From Candidatus Tayloriibacteriota bacterium (lineage in GTDB: Bacteria; Patescibacteriota; Minisyncoccia; Phycocordibacterales; PALSA-1337), in the NCBI GenBank assembly GCA_903839695.1, contig CAIMDI010000014.1:1-34602 (forward strand): 34,602 nucleotides of DNA, written 5' to 3'. Shown here piece after piece: positions 12,084 through 34,378 of this stretch. The first letter of the stretch is position 1. Each line of letters opens with the position of its first letter. Under the pieces are notes generated by a model. The model was not told the DNA's origin and made no database searches. It saw nothing but the letters and a program-made list of their open reading frames with translations. A program made the position numbers and the translations under genes.

Positions 12084-15000
12084 TTATCTTCCAATAAATG
12101 CTCTTGTTTTCGGACCAAAATACCCTATCGCTGGTGAAATATTTTTTGCTTTTTGGAATTTAATCAATGCTGCTTTTGTAGCTTTTCCGAAGATATTTGT
12201 TTCTTTTCCTATTGAACCTGGACCTGAGATTGAAACAGTGTATCCATTTTTATTTAAAAATTGCTGTAATAATCTAACCTCTTCACTAATAACGCCAAAT
12301 TGTAAATCTTTTGATTTCGTAAGTAGATTTGTAATATTTAATACCTCTGTTTGTATTACTTTAACCTTTTCGAAAATATTAGGATATTGTTTAATCAATT
12401 CATCTGCACTTTTTTGATTACCCATATTCTGTAAATTATAAACTCTACTTTGAACTGAACTGCCACTTGAAGAACTTCTATTTACAACTACTGGTGTAGA
12501 TTCAACGACTGTGGGTACGATAACCTCTGCAATGAATGCTGGATAATTATTTGTTATTTTATACCAAATAGGATCAGTGAAATTCCAATGATCAACGAAT
12601 GGCGCTTTTGTATTTACATCTAAACCTTTAAAATAATTTATACTTGTTGCTAATGTGGGTTGACTTGATCCATCTCTAGAATCACCAACTCCTACAGTTT
12701 GTGTGGTATTAAACCAATAATTATTTCCAGGAATACTATCTCCATTTCCTGTTTTATAATTATACTCTGTACCGTAACCGATAAAACCTCCGATATAAAT
12801 TGGTGTATTAGTACCCGCTGATACATTTCCAGTACTAAATGAATTACTTACACCACAAGTGCCACAATTGCTGTCTGTACCAATAAATCCACCAAGATTA
12901 TCATATCCAGAAACATTTCCAGTAGAATATGAATTTTCTACTTTTCCTGAATTAAATCCTATAAAGCCTCCGACATTAGTGCCGTCATTGATAGCATTTG
13001 CATTTCCTATTGAATATGAATTTTTTATTATTACATTTTGATGATTCACATTACCAACAAATCCTCCGATGTTTTGATATCCTGTAACATTTCCGGTTGA
13101 ATAAGAATTTTCTATTAATCCAACATCATAAATTCTTCCCACTAAACCACCGGTGTCACTTCCTGTAGATTCAACATCCCCAGTAGCATAAGATCCTGTA
13201 ATTGTTTTTTCATTATAACCCACCAAACCACCTATCAAATTTACTCCGATTGTCTTTGCAGTAGAATGTGAATTTATTATTGTGCTACTTTCAAATAATG
13301 TGCCAAAAATCATGCGTGTATTCCATCTTCTTAAATATTCAAGGTTTTTCGAAGTCAATGGATATTTTTCTGCTACTGAATATGGATATTTGGTCATACC
13401 CCTAAAAGGCAAAGGTTCAACAGTGCGTCCTATGGCACCCAACTTAGCGTGCTTAAACATATCATAATTATATAATACAAAATCTCTTTCCATTCCTTCT
13501 GCCGGTGGTACATATTGGAATTCAGCACTAATTTGATCACCATGATGCATTATTACAAACTGATCATCGGTACTTTGTAATAATTCTGATACATCACCAT
13601 ATTTCGTGAAATTACCAATTTGTGAAGCATAACTTTCTTTTGACGTAGATGATACCTTACTATAATCATGATTAAGGAAAAATTCATTATTTATAGAAGT
13701 ATATCCAAAGAAATGTAAATCAGCACTTGTAGGATGATACGTATTTACTGTGTATGTCTGTTGTTCGGTTGTATCTATTGCAAAATAATTCATTCTTGTT
13801 CTTGAATATCCAACACGAACCTCATAATTATTTGTTAAGAATTTATTTGTTAAATCAATAACTTGAGTTCTTGGAGATCCACCCATTGCAGATAATTCTG
13901 AACCACTATAAGCATTAACCCAATTCCCTTGTGTATTTTTTACTTGAACATAATGAAGATTTTTTGCATATCCATCTTCCGCACCATTTGTTATTAGCAA
14001 AATACGATTTGCTGCAGATAAATCTCCAAAATTTAATGTCCAATATGTATCGTTCATATCCCCCTTCTCACTCCATTTATTATCTAGATTATTTAATGAT
14101 GAAAGACAATTATTTCCAAATCTATCCGTACATGAAATTAATGGATTTGTAGGATTATCTTTTATTGTATAGAATTCATTGCTTTTATTTTTTTGTAATG
14201 ATGTTGCAATCTTATAACCAGGAGCATGATCAAATGTCTTCAATGCTAATTCATCATAATAAACTATTTCATTGTATTCCTGAGAAACATTTACTGAGTA
14301 CTTTCCATTTTTAGGCAATAATCTTGTGCCTTCTATTGGCAAATTATCATCTCCAGTTACGTTTCTAGAAAGACTGCGTCCAACATCTCCTATAAAATCA
14401 TATTTACTACCATTCCATGTATAAACCAAAGGACTTGATTGAAAATTACCACCAGCCACATGTCTTCCTACCAAACCTCCGACTTCTTCGTAACCATTGA
14501 CTGCTCCAGTACTATAAGAATTGGTAACTGTTCCAGCTAGCCCCCCTGCCAATGCTCCAACATAATAATTTCCAGTAATATTTACATTCGTTAAACCGAG
14601 ATTTGAAACAGATCCCCCTTCATTTATTACACCAAATAATCCTACATAATTATTATTAGGAAGATTTATATAAAGACCAGATATAGTATGATTTCCACCA
14701 TCAAAACTTCCAATGAATTGATTTGTTGAATCACCTATTGGTGAAAATCCATAATAACCATCACCAAAAGGCTGTTGAGAATTCCAAGTTGATGTCTCAG
14801 AACAATCTAAATCTTTTGTTAATGTATAACTTGAATATTTATCATTATTTATATTCTGTAATTCGGAACAAGATGTAATATTATAATTAGAAGAAGCTGG
14901 AAAAGTATATAAAAAGATATCTGATGTAACTCCTTCTCCTGCGCTATTGTATGCTATTACTTTAAATTCAAAAGTATGATTTGGTAAAAAACTATTTGAA

Positions 15001-16694
15001 AAAGCATATGTAGTAGTAGGACTGCCAATAGTAAATGTTGTCCAAGAACTACTTACAGACGGCTCTCTGTATAAAATTTTATAATCAAAAATATAACCGC
15101 CATCATCTACAGGAGGTGTCCAACCAAATACAAAATTATCATAAGTACCACTTACATGTCTCAGATTTGTGGGTGCTTCTGGTATAGTAGCATTAATATA
15201 ATTTACAGTAATTGAATCGACGGCTGGAGAAACGCCATCAGTTTGCGATAGTATGGTTTTAAATTGAACATATTCCTTTGCAATTAATCCAGCAGTATTT
15301 AAATCTGAAGTCAACTTTGTAAATGTTCCATCACTTGTTGTGCTTCCGATATTTATAAATGGCTCTGATTCTATATCCCAATAATTAGAACTCGTCCTCA
15401 TATAAATATCTACCAATCTATTAGAATTTAAACCTGAAATATCAATACTTACCGCCTCACTTCCGCCAGTACTGTCACCCCATTTACCTATAATTCCATA
15501 ATCTAATTTGCTGGATATCCATACCCCGTCTTGGTATACCGGAATTGTCGCGACCTCTTCAGTTCCAACACTAACACTTGGTAAAGGAAGTGCTGTAGAA
15601 AATACATCATTTATAGACATATTTTTTATTAGATGTGTATTTGTCTGACCTGCATTTCTTGAACCAAATCCATAATATTGACCACTCGTATTCCTAACAA
15701 TATCAGTATAGTCCATCATCTTTACTCCATCATAATAGACTTCAAATCTAGTATTTGTTTTTTTTATTCTTGCAGTATGATATCCACTATAACTCATTCC
15801 TGTCTTTGAAATAGCCTTGAGCAAATTACCATTATAATTTAATTGTATTTGACCTTGTGGACTACCGTTATATTCATCAAAATTTATACTATAACCTCCG
15901 TTTACAGCATCTTCACCTTGTGGGGTCGCGCTATTGTTGTATGCAAAAAAGTAAGTGGCATCTGCACCTATATTATTACAACATCCTCCACTTGCAGAAA
16001 AGTCAAAAGATACATCAAAATTTGTTCCCAACACTAAATCCGCAGGACCATAGGAAAGTTGTCCGTGACCACCAATATCTGCTGTATTTAACTTTACTAC
16101 TCCTCCTCCATTATCAACAGCTGTTCCATGAAGATGATTTGAATCTATAATCAAACTTATAGTTCCAGTAGCAATTGTTGCAGCAATAGAAGTTTGAGTA
16201 GAAATAGATCCATAATATAAATAAATAATCTTTGATGAAGACTTTGGTATAAATGGAACTTTCACAGATACTATCGTATTTGCAGTATTACACAAAGCAA
16301 TATCCATCTCTCGTAAATCAGAAATTTTATTTGAATCACGCATACGTATATCACCACAATCTGATTGTATCTTACCTCCAGTTATCAATGTGGCAGTATT
16401 TAATTCAAAAGAAACAATATTACTATACAGGTCATTGGAATTACCTGTATTGTTTATCGTGATCGGCAATAAATATTGATCGCCAACAGGTATAGTTGTG
16501 GTACTCAATTTTATAGAACCAGAATTTCCTGTGCCGACTATAGTCACGTTTGTAACTTCACTGCTAGCCGAAAAATCAGAAACTGAGGTAATGACTGATG
16601 TTATTGCAAAAACTTTTTGAATTTGAAAGAGAAAAGAAAAAACGAATATTATTAATAGGAAGAAAAAATATTTGTCACGAAACAAAACTTTCAT
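12084..16694 (-). CDS. Giant multidomain surface protein (DUF2341, LamG-like, FN3, GLUG, PG-binding)
   Basis: The product is 1536 aa from ATG 16694; the frame stays open to GTG 16730 but AT-rich promoter-like sequence lies there. A signal peptide (about residues 1-30) is followed by a DUF2341-like region (about 50-170), a lectin/LamG-like beta-sandwich (about 180-360), one FN3 domain (about 505-600), GLUG repeats (about 610-760 and 1130-1370, recognisable as GG-F/L-V/I-G ... SYSTG-x-V), and a C-terminal peptidoglycan-binding domain (about 1465-1536, EVRLLQQFLNKNGY ... FGPKTRAFIG). Between the two GLUG blocks sits an unrelated about 380-aa module. It is probably an adhesin held at the wall by its C-terminus. 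It heads a two-gene unit with the propeller-like protein. Confidence 0.85.
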   Translation of the reverse strand: MKVLFRDKYFFFLLIIFVFSFLFQIQKVFAITSVITSVSDFSASSEVTNVTIVGTGNSGSIKLSTTTIPVGDQYLLPITINNTGNSNDLYSNIVSFELNTATLITGGKIQSDCGDIRMRDSNKISDLREMDIALCNTANTIVSVKVPFIPKSSSKIIYLYYGSISTQTSIAATIATGTISLIIDSNHLHGTAVDNGGGVVKLNTADIGGHGQLSYGPADLVLGTNFDVSFDFSASGGCCNNIGADATYFFAYNNSATPQGEDAVNGGYSINFDEYNGSPQGQIQLNYNGNLLKAISKTGMSYSGYHTARIKKTNTRFEVYYDGVKMMDYTDIVRNTSGQYYGFGSRNAGQTNTHLIKNMSINDVFSTALPLPSVSVGTEEVATIPVYQDGVWISSKLDYGIIGKWGDSTGGSEAVSIDISGLNSNRLVDIYMRTSSNYWDIESEPFINIGSTTSDGTFTKLTSDLNTAGLIAKEYVQFKTILSQTDGVSPAVDSITVNYINATIPEAPTNLRHVSGTYDNFVFGWTPPVDDGGYIFDYKILYREPSVSSSWTTFTIGSPTTTYAFSNSFLPNHTFEFKVIAYNSAGEGVTSDIFLYTFPASSNYNITSCSELQNINNDKYSSYTLTKDLDCSETSTWNSQQPFGDGYYGFSPIGDSTNQFIGSFDGGNHTISGLYINLPNNNYVGLFGVINEGGSVSNLGLTNVNITGNYYVGALAGGLAGTVTNSYSTGAVNGYEEVGGLVGRHVAGGNFQSSPLVYTWNGSKYDFIGDVGRSLSRNVTGDDNLPIEGTRLLPKNGKYSVNVSQEYNEIVYYDELALKTFDHAPGYKIATSLQKNKSNEFYTIKDNPTNPLISCTDRFGNNCLSSLNNLDNKWSEKGDMNDTYWTLNFGDLSAANRILLITNGAEDGYAKNLHYVQVKNTQGNWVNAYSGSELSAMGGSPRTQVIDLTNKFLTNNYEVRVGYSRTRMNYFAIDTTEQQTYTVNTYHPTSADLHFFGYTSINNEFFLNHDYSKVSSTSKESYASQIGNFTKYGDVSELLQSTDDQFVIMHHGDQISAEFQYVPPAEGMERDFVLYNYDMFKHAKLGAIGRTVEPLPFRGMTKYPYSVAEKYPLTSKNLEYLRRWNTRMIFGTLFESSTIINSHSTAKTIGVNLIGGLVGYNEKTITGSYATGDVESTGSDTGGLVGRIYDVGLIENSYSTGNVTGYQNIGGFVGNVNHQNVIIKNSYSIGNANAINDGTNVGGFIGFNSGKVENSYSTGNVSGYDNLGGFIGTDSNCGTCGVSNSFSTGNVSAGTNTPIYIGGFIGYGTEYNYKTGNGDSIPGNNYWFNTTQTVGVGDSRDGSSQPTLATSINYFKGLDVNTKAPFVDHWNFTDPIWYKITNNYPAFIAEVIVPTVVESTPVVVNRSSSSGSSVQSRVYNLQNMGNQKSADELIKQYPNIFEKVKVIQTEVLNITNLLTKSKDLQFGVISEEVRLLQQFLNKNGYTVSISGPGSIGKETNIFGKATKAALIKFQKAKNISPAIGYFGPKTRAFIGR

Positions 16695-16796
16695 GCATAT
16701 ATTATAATTTATAAAAGTAATTATATCCACTGGATTTTATGTGAGTTGTCAACAGTTTTAAAATTAAATTTAAAAGACATAAAACCTAGTTTAAGC

Positions 16797-18787: not shown

Positions 18788-19291
18788 TTATCTAGTTACA
18801 GATATTGACTCCGTTATTTCTCCTATAGAAGAAACTGTTATGCGACCGTTAGCATCCTGAAAAATCTTGTATTCGGTATTATATGCACCATTTTCAATAT
18901 ATCCAGCACCAGGTTTTGAAGGATCAAAAGGTAATGATGAAATGTAATTAGGCACAAGACAATCAGCGATATCAAACTTGGGAGTTATAGAAAAATCATT
19001 GGTCATAAGTGTAGATGTTCCAGGGATTTGTTGTGTTGTGGTTCCACAATAAAACGTGCCCCTATGTTCTGCAATATCTTGACCAACAGCATTTAAAATA
19101 GCTGTTACATTACTAACTCTTTGAGAATCTCTAGCCAATTTGAATTGTCTTGCAGGATTTATAGCAACAAGAACAACCGCTGCCAATACCGCTATAATAC
19201 CTATAACAATCAAAATTTCTATGAGTGTAAAACCCCTACTTTTATCTTTTCTATTCAAAACCAAATTCCCTGTTTTATTTGTTTTTATCAT
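18788..19291 (-). CDS. Type IV pilin-like protein (probable major pilin)
   Basis: The 167-aa protein carries a basic 20-residue leader ending RG, then FTLIEILIVIGIIAVLAAV, the class III prepilin signature. Cleavage is expected between G20 and F21, and E25 is the Glu5 that orders pilin subunits. The globular part has a pair of cysteines (about C82 and C111) that could form a disulfide and a beta-rich C-terminus. It is the last gene of the minus-strand pilus cluster and has its own upstream 11-bp repeat array at 19331, so it can be transcribed separately, as expected for the most abundant subunit. No prepilin peptidase gene is in the window. Confidence 0.9.
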   Translation of the reverse strand: MIKTNKTGNLVLNRKDKSRGFTLIEILIVIGIIAVLAAVVLVAINPARQFKLARDSQRVSNVTAILNAVGQDIAEHRGTFYCGTTTQQIPGTSTLMTNDFSITPKFDIADCLVPNYISSLPFDPSKPGAGYIENGAYNTEYKIFQDANGRITVSSIGEITESISVTR

Positions 19292-19330
19292 TATTTTAAT
19301 AATTATTTATAATACAAAAATAATATAAAA

Positions 19331-19374
19331 AAGTTCTTAAGAAGTTCTAAAGGAATCATAAAGAAATGATAAAG
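19331..19374 (-). promoter_or_regulatory. Array of four 11-bp units upstream of the pilin gene (copy 1)
   Basis: Plus-strand units start AAGTTCTTAAG and all end in AAG or AG at an 11-base step; the same 44 bases recur exactly at 23429-23472, and the first 22 recur at 34335. The array ends 39 bp before the pilin ATG. In-phase 11-bp direct repeats are the usual form of OmpR/PhoB-family response-regulator sites. An AT-rich stretch with -10 candidates (TATATT, TATTAT) follows toward the gene. Confidence 0.75.
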
Positions 19375-19928: not shown

Positions 19929-21233
19929 TTATTGATTTAATTTAATTATAGAAAATCCTTTTTCATCTCCATTGGCCAAAAATAGATTTGATGAATCACA
20001 TGAAATAACTACTGGCTTTAAACCAAGAGATTTCTCATATAATTTTAAAGAAAAATCTGAATTCCAAACCTGAAATTCAGCTGATGGTGTATGGGATATT
20101 AGGAAATTATATGGTGGTCTCATTAAAAAACCGTAAACACCACCTGGTATATCCTGAGAATATTTGATTTTATAATCTGAGCTTGTAGAAAATACGAAAG
20201 CCTCATGATTTAAAATTCTGTTTATTCCCCCAACTGTTCTACCTAAAGCTAATACATTTTCGAAATACGCAATCACTTTCCCTTGTTGCACTTGCCAGCC
20301 ATCAGCAGTAAAAGTATGTGTTAAGAAAATATTATTTTTATTATTAATATCAATTATTCTCATTTGATTTTCATCAGAAGTAGCGAGAAAAGCAAAATTT
20401 TCATATACATAAATATCATTAATTAATGTATTAGTTTCAAAACTCGAAATCAGAATTGGATTTAGGGGGTTTGAAACATCAATAATATTGAACTCCGCAC
20501 CATCCCATTTATTTGTCCCGAGATAAACATAACCATTACGATAAAAAATAGAATTTGCTCTAGGTGGAGTAGAAGATGCATTTGGTAATGGTAATTTTAA
20601 CTGAGAAACAATATGAGGAAAATTCCTATCATGAATATCTATGATTTGTAATTGTGATAAAGAACTCGTATTGGCTACATATGCGTATGGCCCAGCGATA
20701 GCGAGCGATGCCAATCCTGGACCAGTATTTAATGAAGAAATTATATAAGGATTTAGAAAATCCTCTGCATTAATTATGAAGAAGTCAGCTTGGGATTGAG
20801 TAGGCGAATCTGAAGTCAAATATATAATAGAATTTTTTGAATTAATTCCAGTACTTATATTTCCTGAGCCAAGATAAATACCATTGGGAAAATACTGCAA
20901 ACTTGATATTTCAAAATCAATATTTGTTGAACAAGAGGAATCACCCCAACCTTTTTGAAAATCAGACTTAACAATTTCAAATGGACTGACTTTAATAATT
21001 GTGGAATTATTACCATAAAAAAGTTTAGTGGAACTTGAAAATAATATAGCACTATCCATATCATGCACAGATGTATTTAGCATATCCAATTCTTTTAATG
21101 ACCATGTATTAATACCGTACATAGAAGAATTCAAGGAAAAAATTGAAATAGTAAAAAGTACAAATAAAGATATTGATATCATTATTTCAACAGTTAAAAA
21201 ACCATTATTTTGTAAGGTGATTGGTAATTTCAT
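19929..21233 (-). CDS. Pilin-beta-propeller fusion (pseudopilin with LVIVD-type repeats)
   Basis: The 434-aa protein starts with a prepilin signal, NNGFLTVEIMISISLFVLF: cleavage after G11, mature Phe1 at F12 and Glu5 at E16. From about residue 150 on it has repeats of the LVIVD type, hxIID followed by P-x-I-h-S, at 153-170, 196-212, 249-265 and 292-310, each about 45-50 residues apart, which build a beta-propeller. Pilin N-termini fused to propellers are unusual; PilY1 supplies a propeller at the pilus tip as a separate protein. Predicted role: a large minor pilin at the tip, acting in adhesion. Its start overlaps the pilC-like gene's end by 29 bases. Confidence 0.8.
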   Translation of the reverse strand: MKLPITLQNNGFLTVEIMISISLFVLFTISIFSLNSSMYGINTWSLKELDMLNTSVHDMDSAILFSSSTKLFYGNNSTIIKVSPFEIVKSDFQKGWGDSSCSTNIDFEISSLQYFPNGIYLGSGNISTGINSKNSIIYLTSDSPTQSQADFFIINAEDFLNPYIISSLNTGPGLASLAIAGPYAYVANTSSLSQLQIIDIHDRNFPHIVSQLKLPLPNASSTPPRANSIFYRNGYVYLGTNKWDGAEFNIIDVSNPLNPILISSFETNTLINDIYVYENFAFLATSDENQMRIIDINNKNNIFLTHTFTADGWQVQQGKVIAYFENVLALGRTVGGINRILNHEAFVFSTSSDYKIKYSQDIPGGVYGFLMRPPYNFLISHTPSAEFQVWNSDFSLKLYEKSLGLKPVVISCDSSNLFLANGDEKGFSIIKLNQ

Positions 21234-22266
21234 AAACAGGTAAAATAATAGATAATGCTATGGACCCAACTATCAGACCCATAAAAATCATAAGCGTAGG
21301 TTCAATCAGAGCAGAAAATCTTTTGAGAAAAATATCGATATCCTGTTCAAAAATCCTAGAGCAATGCCCCAACATAGCTGAAACATTTCCAGTTTTTTCA
21401 CCCAATGCGCACATGTCTATCATGGTTTGCAAAAATAGTTCAGGAAATTCTTTCATGGAATTTGAAAAAGATATTCCTTGTAGGGATTGATTGTATATAT
21501 ACTTAAAGGTATTTTTGTAAACAATACTTTCAGCAGAGTCACTGACAAAATAATGAAAATCAGATAATGATTTGCCTGAGGATAGAAACATTTCACCTAT
21601 TCCACAAATAGACGCCAAGGTATTGGTTTTAAAATATGATTCATACACAGGAATAATTAGAATAGATTTGTGGAATAATAGTCTAAAATAATTATTTTTT
21701 TTAATTAGTAAAAATACAATACCAATAAATGATAATAAAAATATAATAATATAAAAACCATGAGAAATAGATACTTCATAAATAGTTTTAACGGCAATGG
21801 TTAATAAAGGCAGCTTTATATTCATACTTATAAGCATTGGTAAGATTTTAGGAAAAATATACAAAACAAGAAAAAGGGCCATTGAAATAGTGGCAATGAA
21901 AATAAAAACAGGATAAATAAGTGTACTAATCAATCTTTTTTTTAATTCATTTCTTTTCTCTAAATTTTTTGCAACTTGTAATAATGAAGCCACAAGAGAG
22001 CCAGATAATTCTCCATTTTTAATAAGTGTAATTAGTAATGGATCAAATTTTACTTTTGATAAAAGCATACTTTTATACAAAGATACACCTTGTTCGCAAT
22101 TATTTATTATGAATTCATATATTTTTTTGTGTTTTATAGAATTATCAATAGATTTGATAATATGAAGCGATTCTATTAGTGAAATACCCGAATCAAGCAT
22201 TAAAGATAGTCTTTGTGCAAAAAAAATTTGTTCAGAAATAGAAAATGACTTTTTTGAATAATTCAT
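21205..22266 (-). CDS. Type IV pilus/type II secretion platform protein (PilC/GspF family)
   Basis: The polytopic inner-membrane protein couples the assembly ATPase to pilin extraction. The 353-aa sequence has the two T2SF repeats: the N-terminal FFAQRLSLMLDSGISLIESL (about residues 14-33), a membrane helix at about 115-135, another at about 165-190, the second repeat (GEMFLSSGKSLSDFHYF), LGEKTGNVSAML (about 288-299) and a C-terminal helix (about 318-342). Length is slightly below the usual about 400. It lies 14 bp after the ATPase gene and overlaps the propeller-pilin gene, consistent with one operon transcribed leftward from the promoter region at 23412-23472. Confidence 0.93.
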   Translation of the reverse strand: MNYSKKSFSISEQIFFAQRLSLMLDSGISLIESLHIIKSIDNSIKHKKIYEFIINNCEQGVSLYKSMLLSKVKFDPLLITLIKNGELSGSLVASLLQVAKNLEKRNELKKRLISTLIYPVFIFIATISMALFLVLYIFPKILPMLISMNIKLPLLTIAVKTIYEVSISHGFYIIIFLLSFIGIVFLLIKKNNYFRLLFHKSILIIPVYESYFKTNTLASICGIGEMFLSSGKSLSDFHYFVSDSAESIVYKNTFKYIYNQSLQGISFSNSMKEFPELFLQTMIDMCALGEKTGNVSAMLGHCSRIFEQDIDIFLKRFSALIEPTLMIFMGLIVGSIALSIILPVYEITNHLTK

Positions 22267-22280
22267 ATACTTTGTATTAA

Positions 22281-23411
22281 TTAATTGTGCACAACTCTAA
22301 GTATTTCTTCCCTACTAGTTATTCCCTTTTCTACCTTTTCCATACCGTCCTCGTACATAGTTATCATTCCTTTGCTTTTAGCATATTTGTCTAAGTCGTT
22401 TATTGAAATATGAGACATTATGTATTGTCTTAATTCATCATCAATAACAAGTGTTTCTGCAATAACTGTTCTACCTTTATAGCCAATCGTTCCACAATCT
22501 GCGCAACCAATACCCTTACACTCAATACAGATTTTCCTTACAAGTCTTTGCGCAATAACAAGAGATAATGTTGATGCAATGAGATAAGGATCAACTTTCA
22601 TATCTATAAGTCGAGGAATAGCACCCAATGCAGAATTTGTATGTAGAGTAGATAAAAGCAAATGACCTGTCAGAGAAATATTTGTAGATATTTGTGCGGT
22701 TTCTATGTCTCTTATTTCACCGACCATTATGATGTCTGGATCTTGTCTGACTATTGAACGTAAACCATTTGCAAAAGTTATACCGTGTTTAGAATGTATT
22801 TGTATTTGTCTAACACCTGGTATTGCATATTCTATAGGATCTTCGAGCGTAATAATAGAATTTTTTTGAGATGAAAGTGAAGAAATCAAAGTATAAAGTG
22901 TAGAAGTCTTTCCTGACCCAGTAGGACCTGTAACCAAAATCATTCCCTGATGATGTGTTAACGAGGAATTAATTCTTCCCATATCGTGTTCAGAAAATCC
23001 CAACTTCAGTAAAGAAGTAGAATCATTTTCATTTTTTAGAATTCTTAAAACGGCATTTTCACCATAATGTGTAGGTATAATAGAAACTCTAATATCGCAT
23101 TCACAAACACCTTCAGAGAATCTAAATCTTCCATCTTGCGGTACAAAATGTATATCTGTTCTTAAGCCTGACATTACTTTTATTCTAGCAATCAGCTCCT
23201 CGTGGCTTTCATTTTTTAATGTATCCTCATAAACTAAAACTCCATCAATTCTAAATCTAATAACTATACCCAATGATGTGGGATCTATATGTATATCAGA
23301 TGCGTTTCTGTAATATGCATAACAAATAATGGAATTTACTAATTCGACAACAGATCTTATGTCGTGAAGGATTTGATTATTTAAATTTATATTGTATTTT
23401 TCATCTTTCAT
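22281..23411 (-). CDS. Pilus assembly ATPase (PilB/GspE family), short form
   Basis: This hexameric ATPase powers pilin polymerisation. The 376-aa protein has the N2E-like segment (ASDIHIDP, 38-44), Walker A GPTGSGKTST (162-171), the Asp box (LEDPIEY), Walker B (DPDIIMVGE, 224-232), the His box (TGHLLLSTLHT) and a zinc-binding tetracysteine (C295, C298, C303, C306). The tetracysteine and context indicate PilB/GspE rather than the retraction ATPase PilT. It lacks the N-terminal MshEN/N1 domain of the usual about 560-aa PilB, which normally contacts PilM. The gene heads the cluster; the 44-bp 11-bp-repeat array ends 17 bases before its ATG and there is no SD site. Confidence 0.93.
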   Translation of the reverse strand: MKDEKYNINLNNQILHDIRSVVELVNSIICYAYYRNASDIHIDPTSLGIVIRFRIDGVLVYEDTLKNESHEELIARIKVMSGLRTDIHFVPQDGRFRFSEGVCECDIRVSIIPTHYGENAVLRILKNENDSTSLLKLGFSEHDMGRINSSLTHHQGMILVTGPTGSGKTSTLYTLISSLSSQKNSIITLEDPIEYAIPGVRQIQIHSKHGITFANGLRSIVRQDPDIIMVGEIRDIETAQISTNISLTGHLLLSTLHTNSALGAIPRLIDMKVDPYLIASTLSLVIAQRLVRKICIECKGIGCADCGTIGYKGRTVIAETLVIDDELRQYIMSHISINDLDKYAKSKGMITMYEDGMEKVEKGITSREEILRVVHN

Positions 23412-23428
23412 GAATAAAAGATAACAAT

Positions 23429-23472
23429 AAGTTCTTAAGAAGTTCTAAAGGAATCATAAAGAAATGATAAAG
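23429..23472 (-). promoter_or_regulatory. Array of four 11-bp units upstream of the pilB-like gene (copy 2)
   Basis: Identical to copy 1 over all four units plus three more bases. The gene-proximal unit ends 17 bases before the ATG; the gap contains TTGTTATC, also present at the same place in copy 3 (TTGTTATG), a likely -10 element. This would make the mRNA nearly leaderless. Confidence 0.8.
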
Positions 23473-32448: not shown

Positions 32449-33372
32449 ATGATTTACGATTTAACAATTATTGGAGGAGGTCCAGCTGGTGTTGCTGCTG
32501 GTGTTTATGCCGCAAGAAAAGAATTAAAAACTCTTTTTATAACAAAAGACTGGAATAGTCAGAGTACAGTTTCTGAAGGTATTGAAAACTGGATAGGTAC
32601 AATCAAAATTTCTGGTAGTGATTTTGCAAAGAGTTTAGAAAATCATTTAAAGGCCTATGCTGCTGACTCTGTTCATATAAATGAAGGTGAATCATGCGAA
32701 AAAATAGAAAAAAAGGGTGAAAATTTTCTTATAAAAACATCAAAAGGAGAATATGAATCAAAAACTATTCTAATTTCTACTGGTAGTTTTAGAAGAAAGC
32801 TTGAAGTAAAAGGTGCTGATATTTTTGAACATAAAGGATTAACATATTGTGCATCATGTGACGGCCCTATGTTTTCTGGACAAGATGTCATAGTGATTGG
32901 TGGAGGAAATGCGGCCTTCGAAAGTGCTGCGCAACTTTTAGCATATTGTAAAAGTGTTACGCTAATTAACCGAAGTGATAAAATGCGTGCAGACCCCGTA
33001 ACCATAGATGCAGTATCAAAAAATCCTCATTTTAAAATAATAAAAAATGCTTTACCTAAAGAAGTAAAAGGTGAAAATTTTGTTTCTAGTTTTGTATACA
33101 CTGACTTAAATACTAATTCTGATATTGAGCTTTCTGCATCTGGTATTTTTGTCGAAATAGGATCAATACCCACAACATACTTTGCAAAAGATTTAGTAAA
33201 AATGAACGAAATTGGCCACATAACAACAGATACAAAAAACCAGCAAACTTCCGTAAAAGGTATTTGGTCTGCCGGTGATTGTACCGATGGTTTATATCAT
33301 CAAAACAATATTGCAGCAGGAGATGCAGTAAAAGCACTTGAAGATATTTATATTTTTTTAAAAGCTAAATAG
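32449..33372 (+). CDS. trxB: Thioredoxin reductase-like flavoprotein
   Basis: The 307-aa protein has the FAD-binding GGGPAGVAAGVYAAR (9-23), the redox-active CASC (C134-C137 in TYCASCDGPMF), the pyridine nucleotide loop GGGNAAFESA (151-160) and the C-terminal GIWSAGDCTDG. It should transfer electrons from a nucleotide to thioredoxin-like partners. The NADPH-specificity segment, HRRxxxR in E. coli TrxB, reads NRSDKMR (174-180), so NADPH preference is doubtful. It ends overlapping the thermonuclease gene by 8 bp on the other strand. Confidence 0.93.
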   Translation: MIYDLTIIGGGPAGVAAGVYAARKELKTLFITKDWNSQSTVSEGIENWIGTIKISGSDFAKSLENHLKAYAADSVHINEGESCEKIEKKGENFLIKTSKGEYESKTILISTGSFRRKLEVKGADIFEHKGLTYCASCDGPMFSGQDVIVIGGGNAAFESAAQLLAYCKSVTLINRSDKMRADPVTIDAVSKNPHFKIIKNALPKEVKGENFVSSFVYTDLNTNSDIELSASGIFVEIGSIPTTYFAKDLVKMNEIGHITTDTKNQQTSVKGIWSAGDCTDGLYHQNNIAAGDAVKALEDIYIFLKAK

Positions 33373-33934
33373 TAATACCCTTACACAAATCTCCCCACAA
33401 TCCCCTTTTGTTTTTTCTTGCATCATTTTCAAATTTATTAAAATCTTTTCTCATTTTGTATGGTATGCCATAAGTGTATTCATGTGCATAGCCATTTTTT
33501 AAAAGAAATTCATTTACAAACAGTCCGTCCCCAAGATACACATATGCCAATACCCTGCCGTATTTATCCAAGATTGATTGAGTCTTGTCAGTTTTAAGTG
33601 TAACAGACTGCCCCTCTAGCATTTTCTTTGTATTGTCAGATGCTTCCTTACCAAAACATTGAATTGGCTTTCTAGGATCAACAGTCTCGGGGGTATCGAT
33701 GCCAAGCATGCGTACTGTGACTAGTTTTTGGTCGACTTTAACTTCAAATGTATCACCATCAATTACAGTAGCAACTTGGTAAAGCTGAGATAGATCAATC
33801 TTGGGAATGTCTCTATGAGAGAATTTGGCAGGTGCTGATAAATATGCAGCAGTAGAACAAAATATTATTATAAATGTAATAAGTGCAATTTTTATTTTAT
33901 ATTTTTTAAATAATTTATACATTTTATTTGACAT
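33365..33934 (-). CDS. Thermonuclease (staphylococcal nuclease family), membrane-anchored or secreted
   Basis: The 189-aa protein has a hydrophobic N-terminal helix (about residues 14-32) and an SNase domain (about 52-184). Calcium/catalytic residues are visible: D60-D61-T62 in VIDGDTF, R75 and E83 in RMLGIDTPET, and R127 in YGRVLAYVY, matching R35, E43 and R87 of the staphylococcal enzyme. The C-terminal RGLWG is also typical. It should cleave DNA and RNA outside the cell, which would fit nucleotide scavenging by a CPR bacterium, and may supply DNA pieces for pilus-linked uptake (inference). Confidence 0.9.
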   Translation of the reverse strand: MSNKMYKLFKKYKIKIALITFIIIFCSTAAYLSAPAKFSHRDIPKIDLSQLYQVATVIDGDTFEVKVDQKLVTVRMLGIDTPETVDPRKPIQCFGKEASDNTKKMLEGQSVTLKTDKTQSILDKYGRVLAYVYLGDGLFVNEFLLKNGYAHEYTYGIPYKMRKDFNKFENDARKNKRGLWGDLCKGITI

Positions 33935-34015: not shown

Positions 34016-34124
34016 AAAAGTAAAAATATATTTCATGCGAATAATTATATGTATATATTCTTCAAGACTAACTCGACAAATCTTTCTCAGAAGTCTCTTA
34101 TTGCTGATACTTTTGATTTGAGAA

Positions 34125-34250
34125 ATGAGAACGCTTGATGATATTGTCTCTAATTTGTATACATATGCATTATCTTTATGTGTACTAGTCAGTGGTATAA
34201 CTATCGCACTTTGTAAATTTATTTTTTTAATAATCAGAACGGGCCACTAG
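34125..34250 (+). CDS. Possible 41-aa membrane peptide
   Basis: A 41-codon frame, beginning MRTLDDIVSN, encodes a single hydrophobic helix (about residues 12-37) with a short basic end. GAGAA lies directly before the ATG. It overlaps the toxin-like remnant on the other strand by 17 bases. It may be a small membrane protein or a chance frame; nothing identifies it. The rest of 33935-34233 holds the promoter-terminator unit and otherwise nothing recognisable. Confidence 0.25.
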   Translation: MRTLDDIVSNLYTYALSLCVLVSGITIALCKFIFLIIRTGH

Positions 34251-34317
34251 GAAAAGAATTAATTCCCTTCTTAACCATATTCCAATTATCAAAGTCTTTT
34301 AGATATTCTTTGTTCAT
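34234..34317 (-). pseudogene. Short remnant resembling the start of a PemK/MazF-type toxin
   Basis: The 27-codon frame contains KDFDNWNMVKKGIN, close to the N-terminal DFDxWNxxKKxI pattern I associate with PemK/MazF-family proteins of these bacteria, then stops after PSGPF. The catalytic barrel is absent, so it is likely a truncated gene. Copy 3 of the 11-bp repeat array ends exactly 17 bases before its ATG. The family call rests on about 14 residues. Confidence 0.35.
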
Positions 34318-34334
34318 CCCCACACCATAACAAA

Positions 34335-34378
34335 AAGTTCTTAAGAAGTTCTAAAGAAAAGCTTAAGAAGTAATGAAG
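34335..34378 (-). promoter_or_regulatory. Array of four 11-bp units (copy 3)
   Basis: The gene-proximal two units are identical to copies 1 and 2; the other two (AAAAGCTTAAG and AAGTAATGAAG on the plus strand) have diverged in sequence but kept the 11-base step and the terminal AAG. The 17-base gap to the next minus-strand ATG and the TTGTTAT element match copy 2. Confidence 0.75.

Follow-up and report, generated by a model that had tools for sequence, protein, structure and literature searches.

The locus analyzed here raises the question of why the same short array of direct repeats recurs in front of several genes of one contig, two of the copies preceding pilus genes, and what might read it. 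The window, that is, the whole stretch of 34,602 nt of a Candidatus Tayloriibacteriota genome that was analyzed, carries three intergenic 44-bp arrays on the minus strand: array 1 (19331..19374) in the promoter of a pilin gene, array 2 (23429..23472) in that of a pilB-pilC-prepilin operon, and array 3 (34335..34378) in that of a mazF remnant. They had been proposed in the first-pass annotation and are present as claimed, each made up of four 11-bp units. Arrays 1 and 2 are identical and read directly as AAGTTCTTAAG AAGTTCTAAAG GAATCATAAAG AAATGATAAAG on the plus strand; array 3 has the same first 22 bases and continues with AAAAGCTTAAG AAGTAATGAAG, two divergent distal units that retain the 11-base step and the terminal AAG, again as first described. 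On the minus strand, which is the direction of the downstream genes, all three read CTTTATCATTT-CTTTATGATTC-CTTTAGAACTT-CTTAAGAACTT or a close variant of this. With up to three mismatches allowed, the 22-nt core is found at three places in the window and in none of 100 dinucleotide shuffles, and a four-unit CTTWA-N6 model gives 11 overlapping matches against 0.24 expected.

Array 1 is separated by 39 nt from the ATG (19291) of a type IV pilin-like protein (18788..19291, minus strand; N_methyl, PF07963), which resembles a pilin found under an array in the related genome G020 (L240). Array 2 precedes genes for a short assembly ATPase of the ComGA/PilB/GspE family (376 aa; 22281..23411), a PilC/GspF/ComGB-like inner-membrane protein (21205..22266) and, in the same operon, a protein with a prepilin-like N-terminus and LVIVD repeats (19929..21233), all on the minus strand. 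Behind array 3 is a decayed MazF/PemK-like gene (34046..34317, minus strand), consisting of a 27-codon 5' piece and then a frame-shifted 3' piece that matches PF02452. The arrays were said to face minus-strand start codons, two of them across a gap of 17 nt, and this is the case at array 2 (ATG 23411) and array 3 (ATG 34317), where the gaps contain TTGTTATC and TTGTTATG, respectively, but the start codon at array 3 is that of the 27-codon remnant only. The first intact gene past the remnant encodes an SNase-family (staphylococcal-nuclease) protein with an N-terminal hydrophobic stretch (33365..33934, minus strand; PF00565), and array 3 is probably its promoter as well. An array also precedes this nuclease gene in the sister species (G004, L033), with a remnant beginning MKYVFIDESGDLGF in between, which we take to be reminiscent of DUF3800 proteins. 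Close to the pilus cluster of the window, and without an array, is the gene for a 1548-aa probable surface protein (12084-16730) with fn3, DUF2341 and peptidoglycan-binding domains and GLUG repeats.

The genome to which the window belongs comprises 732 kb in 36 contigs and is estimated to be complete. A search without any condition on the following sequence found nine core sites, and a looser model gave 11 promoter-like sites; a control with the reversed pattern had no matches at the stricter settings and one at three mismatches. A match with three mismatches at C23:3693 lies at the 3' end of a pyruvate kinase-like gene, in the wrong orientation, and was discarded as chance. All 11 sites are intergenic and face a gene start, so the genome-wide search suggested at the outset returned copies at gene starts, with targets enriched for one function. 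These targets are the pilin; the PilB/ComGA-like ATPase with PilC and the prepilin-like protein; the mazF remnant with the SNase gene; ComM/YifB; a MazF-like gene followed by ComEC; two further MazF-like genes; rpsF-ssb; a 75-aa coiled-coil ORF; a 131-aa ORF with a weak LPD3 match; and a 924-aa surface protein with an LCAT-like hydrolase domain (L025:3387-6161). Proteins with an N-terminal stretch similar to that of the 924-aa protein are under arrays in G004 (L043) and G020 (L241). Further down the ComEC stretch is a 254-aa protein that resembles the ComEC MBL domain by eye and gave no family matches. The promoter element is thus shared by core DNA-uptake genes, namely comEC, pilB/comGA, pilC, pilin and comM in this genome, comEC, pilB, pilin and comM in G020, and comEC, pilB and comM in G004. 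No site was found in this genome at the other PilB-type ATPase genes (e.g., C16:19951), nor at the recombination mediator genes dprA (C6:10262) and recA (L026, C3), and the regulon is therefore selective. The idea of a pilus/competence regulon holds for competence and DNA uptake but not for pili in general, as the other PilB-type ATPase genes lack a site, and the regulon also takes in MazF-like and other accessory genes.

A predicted -10 element begins 5 nt past each array of the window, and reads TATTAT at array 1 (19320..19325), TATCTT at array 2 (23418..23423) and TATGGT at array 3 (34324..34329), all on the minus strand, the last two ending 6 nt before the ATG of pilB and of the mazF remnant, respectively. 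Genome-wide, TANNNT begins exactly 5 nt past the last unit at all nine independently found sites and at 11/11 sites overall, and the same is seen at 10/10 sites in G020; the motif was not demanded by the search pattern for the nine core sites or the G020 sites, and it has a background frequency of about 0.03 across the window, or up to 0.15 where the AT content is highest. The G004 sites give no independent count of TANNNT, as the search pattern used there itself contained the motif. An extended -10 TG is found at six of the 11 sites. At pilB, comM, the mazF-comEC gene, the mazF remnant and the 131-aa ORF the ATG lies 6 nt past the -10, which would place the 5' end of the mRNA on or beside the start codon, and several transcripts are predicted to be leaderless. 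Given the -10 register, the last two array units span roughly -18 to -39, which is where a PhoB-type class II activator would be expected to sit. Direct repeats with an 11-bp step that overlap the -35 are the kind of site sought for the regulon of an OmpR/PhoB-type response regulator, and the arrays are of this kind.

Two further features recur near the sites. Leadered targets in this genome (G000; C3:6844 and C10:53014) and in G004 (L037, L040 and L048) have a common 5' leader near CAAATTATTAAGATAATT, a short palindrome directly after the -10. At other sites (G000 C3:6193, C3:6844 and C10:63818; G004 L034, L036, L040, L041 and L043) the two distal units are replaced by a recurring sequence, approximately AATGCTGTTTTTTGACAAAAT, or by AACTACTAAAAACAGTGGTTTT, the latter containing an inverted repeat, and a second regulator may bind at these replacements.

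The same 22-bp model finds 14 promoters in the sister species G004, and the target list is largely shared, including comM, mazF-comEC, pilB, the coiled-coil ORF and the surface protein; a site at a contig end is probably the pilin promoter. The exact 22-bp core was absent from 145 other relatives. At first this suggested a peculiarity of one species pair, but the regions upstream of comM and pilB in further relatives carry arrays of other units with the same 11-bp step. In G020, a member of another genus (g7), a 33-mer from the comM array was found ten times, nine of them perfect. These sites are before pilB, comM, the N-terminal part of ComEC, the MBL part of ComEC, the orthologs of the pilin and the surface protein, and a coiled-coil ORF, and at three less clear places, one of them about 100 bp behind the regulator gene described below. 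The spelling of the G020 arrays differs from that in the window's genome, and the 11-bp step and -10 register are the same. Among the ten genomes with both arrays, those of comM and pilB match at 35.8/40 positions within a genome and at 26.3/40 between genomes (permutation P = 5e-5); the pairs in G006 and G005 agree at 36/40 and 38/40, yet differ from the arrays of the window. Such a pattern is expected where every site in a genome is read by one trans-acting protein whose specificity drifts from genome to genome. A hand-made degenerate pattern had no matches in five congeners and was too strict, as arrays are visible there by eye and in self-comparison. In a set of comM regions from named genomes, most of them from outside the family of the window and serving as a negative control, 11 was the strongest period in only 3/78 contigs, and the trait therefore appears to be largely restricted to that family. 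Conservation does not extend to the rpsF-ssb site or to several accessory targets. The comparison with relatives, also proposed in the first-pass annotation, thus finds the regulon kept in the sister species and, with rewritten sequence, in another genus. In G012, a PilB match (C11:88409-89242) lies inside a reported open frame of 24574 codons, which is implausibly long for a gene and may reflect either a giant ORF or an artefact of how the contig is composed or masked.

An OmpR/PhoB-type regulator had been suggested from the form of the repeats, and a candidate is present. The genome has exactly one match to PF00486 (Trans_reg_C, winged-helix), and so a single OmpR/PhoB-type DNA-binding domain, and this is joined to a receiver domain (REC, PF00072) in one 224-aa protein (C25:17606-18280, minus strand). 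It is related in sequence to solved OmpR/PhoB-type regulators and matches no single named ortholog group; against the PhoB equivalog model (NCBIfam TIGR02154) it scores 160.8 bits where the cut-off is 296.2, and it does not belong to PhoB proper. The G004 protein is 64% identical, and orthologs occur throughout the family with a largely invariant DNA-binding helix (S-N-T-x-E-x-H). No kinase gene adjoins the regulator gene in this genome, where four kinase-like proteins besides gyrase are encoded away from it; in the congener G002 a histidine-kinase-like ORF, recognized by eye, directly follows the regulator. The regulator and the comM arrays show a correlated but imperfect distribution: upstream of comM, 11 is the strongest period in 13/20 genomes that have the regulator as a strong match, compared with 4/14 of those without it (Mann-Whitney P = 0.014 on z-scores). 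Arrays are present and the regulator was not detected in G005, G015 and G017, which gaps in these 90-92% complete MAGs may explain. Some genomes with the regulator have no array at comM, as in G002 (where there is one at pilB), G011, G060 and G062.

Taken together, the arrays are likely to be the upstream activating sites of a competence regulon read by this sole OmpR/PhoB-type response regulator. Each would serve one promoter, with copies of the regulator predicted to bind head to tail and cooperatively along the array, from one 11-bp unit to the next at a spacing of about one helical turn. The -35 region would be covered by the last two units, the array ending 5 bp before the -10 (TANNNT, often with an extended -10 TG), so that the bound and presumably phosphorylated protein would replace the -35 hexamer and recruit RNA polymerase in the manner of PhoB. 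It would thereby switch on a DNA-uptake regulon of a dedicated pilin, the short PilB/ComGA-like ATPase, PilC, ComEC and ComM, further targets probably being the SNase-family nuclease, the surface protein, the coiled-coil protein and the stand-alone MazF-like genes. What the genomes show directly is where the sites are, their register, which genes they face and how they are conserved, together with a single candidate regulator whose family fits; from this we infer binding, activation, phosphorylation, the input signal and the transformability of the cells.

Other explanations of the arrays differ widely in plausibility. The sites could be genuine competence-gene sites and yet be recognized by a different DNA-binding protein, or the candidate regulator could repress from them, which is possible because the promoters overlap the array. 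Conservation and co-evolution point to a trans-acting factor without naming which, and three MAGs have arrays and no detected regulator ortholog; however, head-to-tail 11-bp repeats over a poor -35, with a fixed -10, are what is seen where PhoB-type proteins activate, the genome has a single DNA-binding domain of this kind, and in G020 an array lies behind the regulator gene itself, all of which make this reading rather unlikely. The arrays could also belong to a mobile or repeat element scattered through the genome, whether REP/MITE-like or a cassette of promoter and toxin gene, and lie before genes by accident, but we regard this as very improbable. The C3 pair (6193, 6844) does have a common duplicated upstream stretch, and TATGGTGTGGGGATG is common to several accessory genes, suggesting copied promoter-gene cassettes, but the flanks are otherwise different, no transposase gene was seen adjoining the arrays, copies occur only at gene starts in one orientation and with a fixed -10, and orthologous genes retain the array across genera despite its rewritten sequence. 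As for chance periodicity in AT-rich DNA, the genome is indeed AT-rich and a period of 11 is only moderate in single upstream regions, but the absence of the core from all shuffles, the ten near-perfect 33-mers in G020 and the significance of the comM-pilB pairing have already refuted it, and its probability is negligible. Outcomes that had been named beforehand as speaking against a regulon (copies at random or inside genes, no association with co-functional gene starts, or ends of mobile elements) were not seen.

Of the six MazF/PemK-like sequences in the genome, four directly follow an array (C10:53014, C3:6844, C16:7623 and window 34046-34317), as do G004 loci L032, L034 and L040, the two without an array being C20:13969 and C26:48170. 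No antitoxin gene was recognized beside the array-borne copies. Several of these loci have the stretch TATGGTGTGGGRATG in common from the -10 to the start codon, as though the promoter had been copied along with the beginning of the gene. Among other accessory genes behind arrays in G004, N-terminal resemblances seen by eye are to KilA-N (L037), ORF6N (L048) and, in the case of the remnant at L033, DUF3800.

Known competence systems governed by ComK, the ComX sigma factor, CRP-S or ComE have sites of other forms and were set aside on that ground. PhoB sits near the -35, which it replaces, and contacts sigma. The Pho box of E. coli is a 22-bp box of two 11-bp direct repeats (PMC3978041). The system described here is alike in having a winged-helix response regulator of the OmpR/PhoB type and 11-bp direct repeats, but differs in site sequence, in regulon (competence rather than phosphate), in a regulator far below the PhoB cut-off, and in the number of units, which is four here and about eight in a relative. 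The streptococcal regulator CiaR recognizes NTTAAG-N5-TTTAAG (PMC3091779, PMC9603419), and the proximal pair of the present arrays, CTTTAG-N5-CTTAAG, has near-identical half-sites and the same 11-bp step when compared by half-site alone. CiaRH also affects competence; however, the targets of CiaR are small-RNA and other genes, and in the present system the site belongs to the genes for ComEC, ComM and the pilus ATPase themselves and has more units. RpaA, too, is an OmpR-type response regulator. In Synechococcus elongatus it controls the competence pilus genes pilA3 and pilW (PMC7125226), but as a global circadian regulator with more than 100 targets, in contrast to a small regulon centred on DNA uptake. 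A toxin-type gene under a competence promoter, often decayed between strains, is known from toxTA of Haemophilus influenzae (PMC6957337), which is comparable in both respects to the MazF-like genes described above, except that the regulator there is CRP/Sxy and that here no recognized antitoxin gene adjoins.

Within the Patescibacteria, ComEC-dependent natural transformation has been described in Saccharibacteria, in a paper where a term search found no discussion of competence regulation (PMC10633639). The open-licence literature yielded no description of a competence regulator or regulon for Patescibacteria, and the competence regulon reported here, specific to one lineage, is therefore new, as are its likely regulator, the arrays of several units, the probably leaderless promoters and the MazF-like genes carried along. 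Competence genes are abundant in Patescibacteria, and for one of their families there is now a named candidate regulator, together with its predicted sites, the layout of the promoters and a set of targets that is found again from genus to genus with sites of different sequence. The related genomes form a set in which the joint change of a regulator and its sites can be studied, and the inducibility of DNA uptake, its signal and the functions induced with it can be put to the test using short DNA fragments and a single purified protein, without cultivation. A bolder and more tentative reading, possible but somewhat doubtful at present, is that one response regulator may be a dedicated master activator of competence in a family of Patescibacteria, firing leaderless DNA-uptake transcripts and using the same promoters to express stand-alone MazF-type RNases. 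If this is true, DNA uptake in these presumed epibionts would be an induced state coupled to a slow-down of translation.
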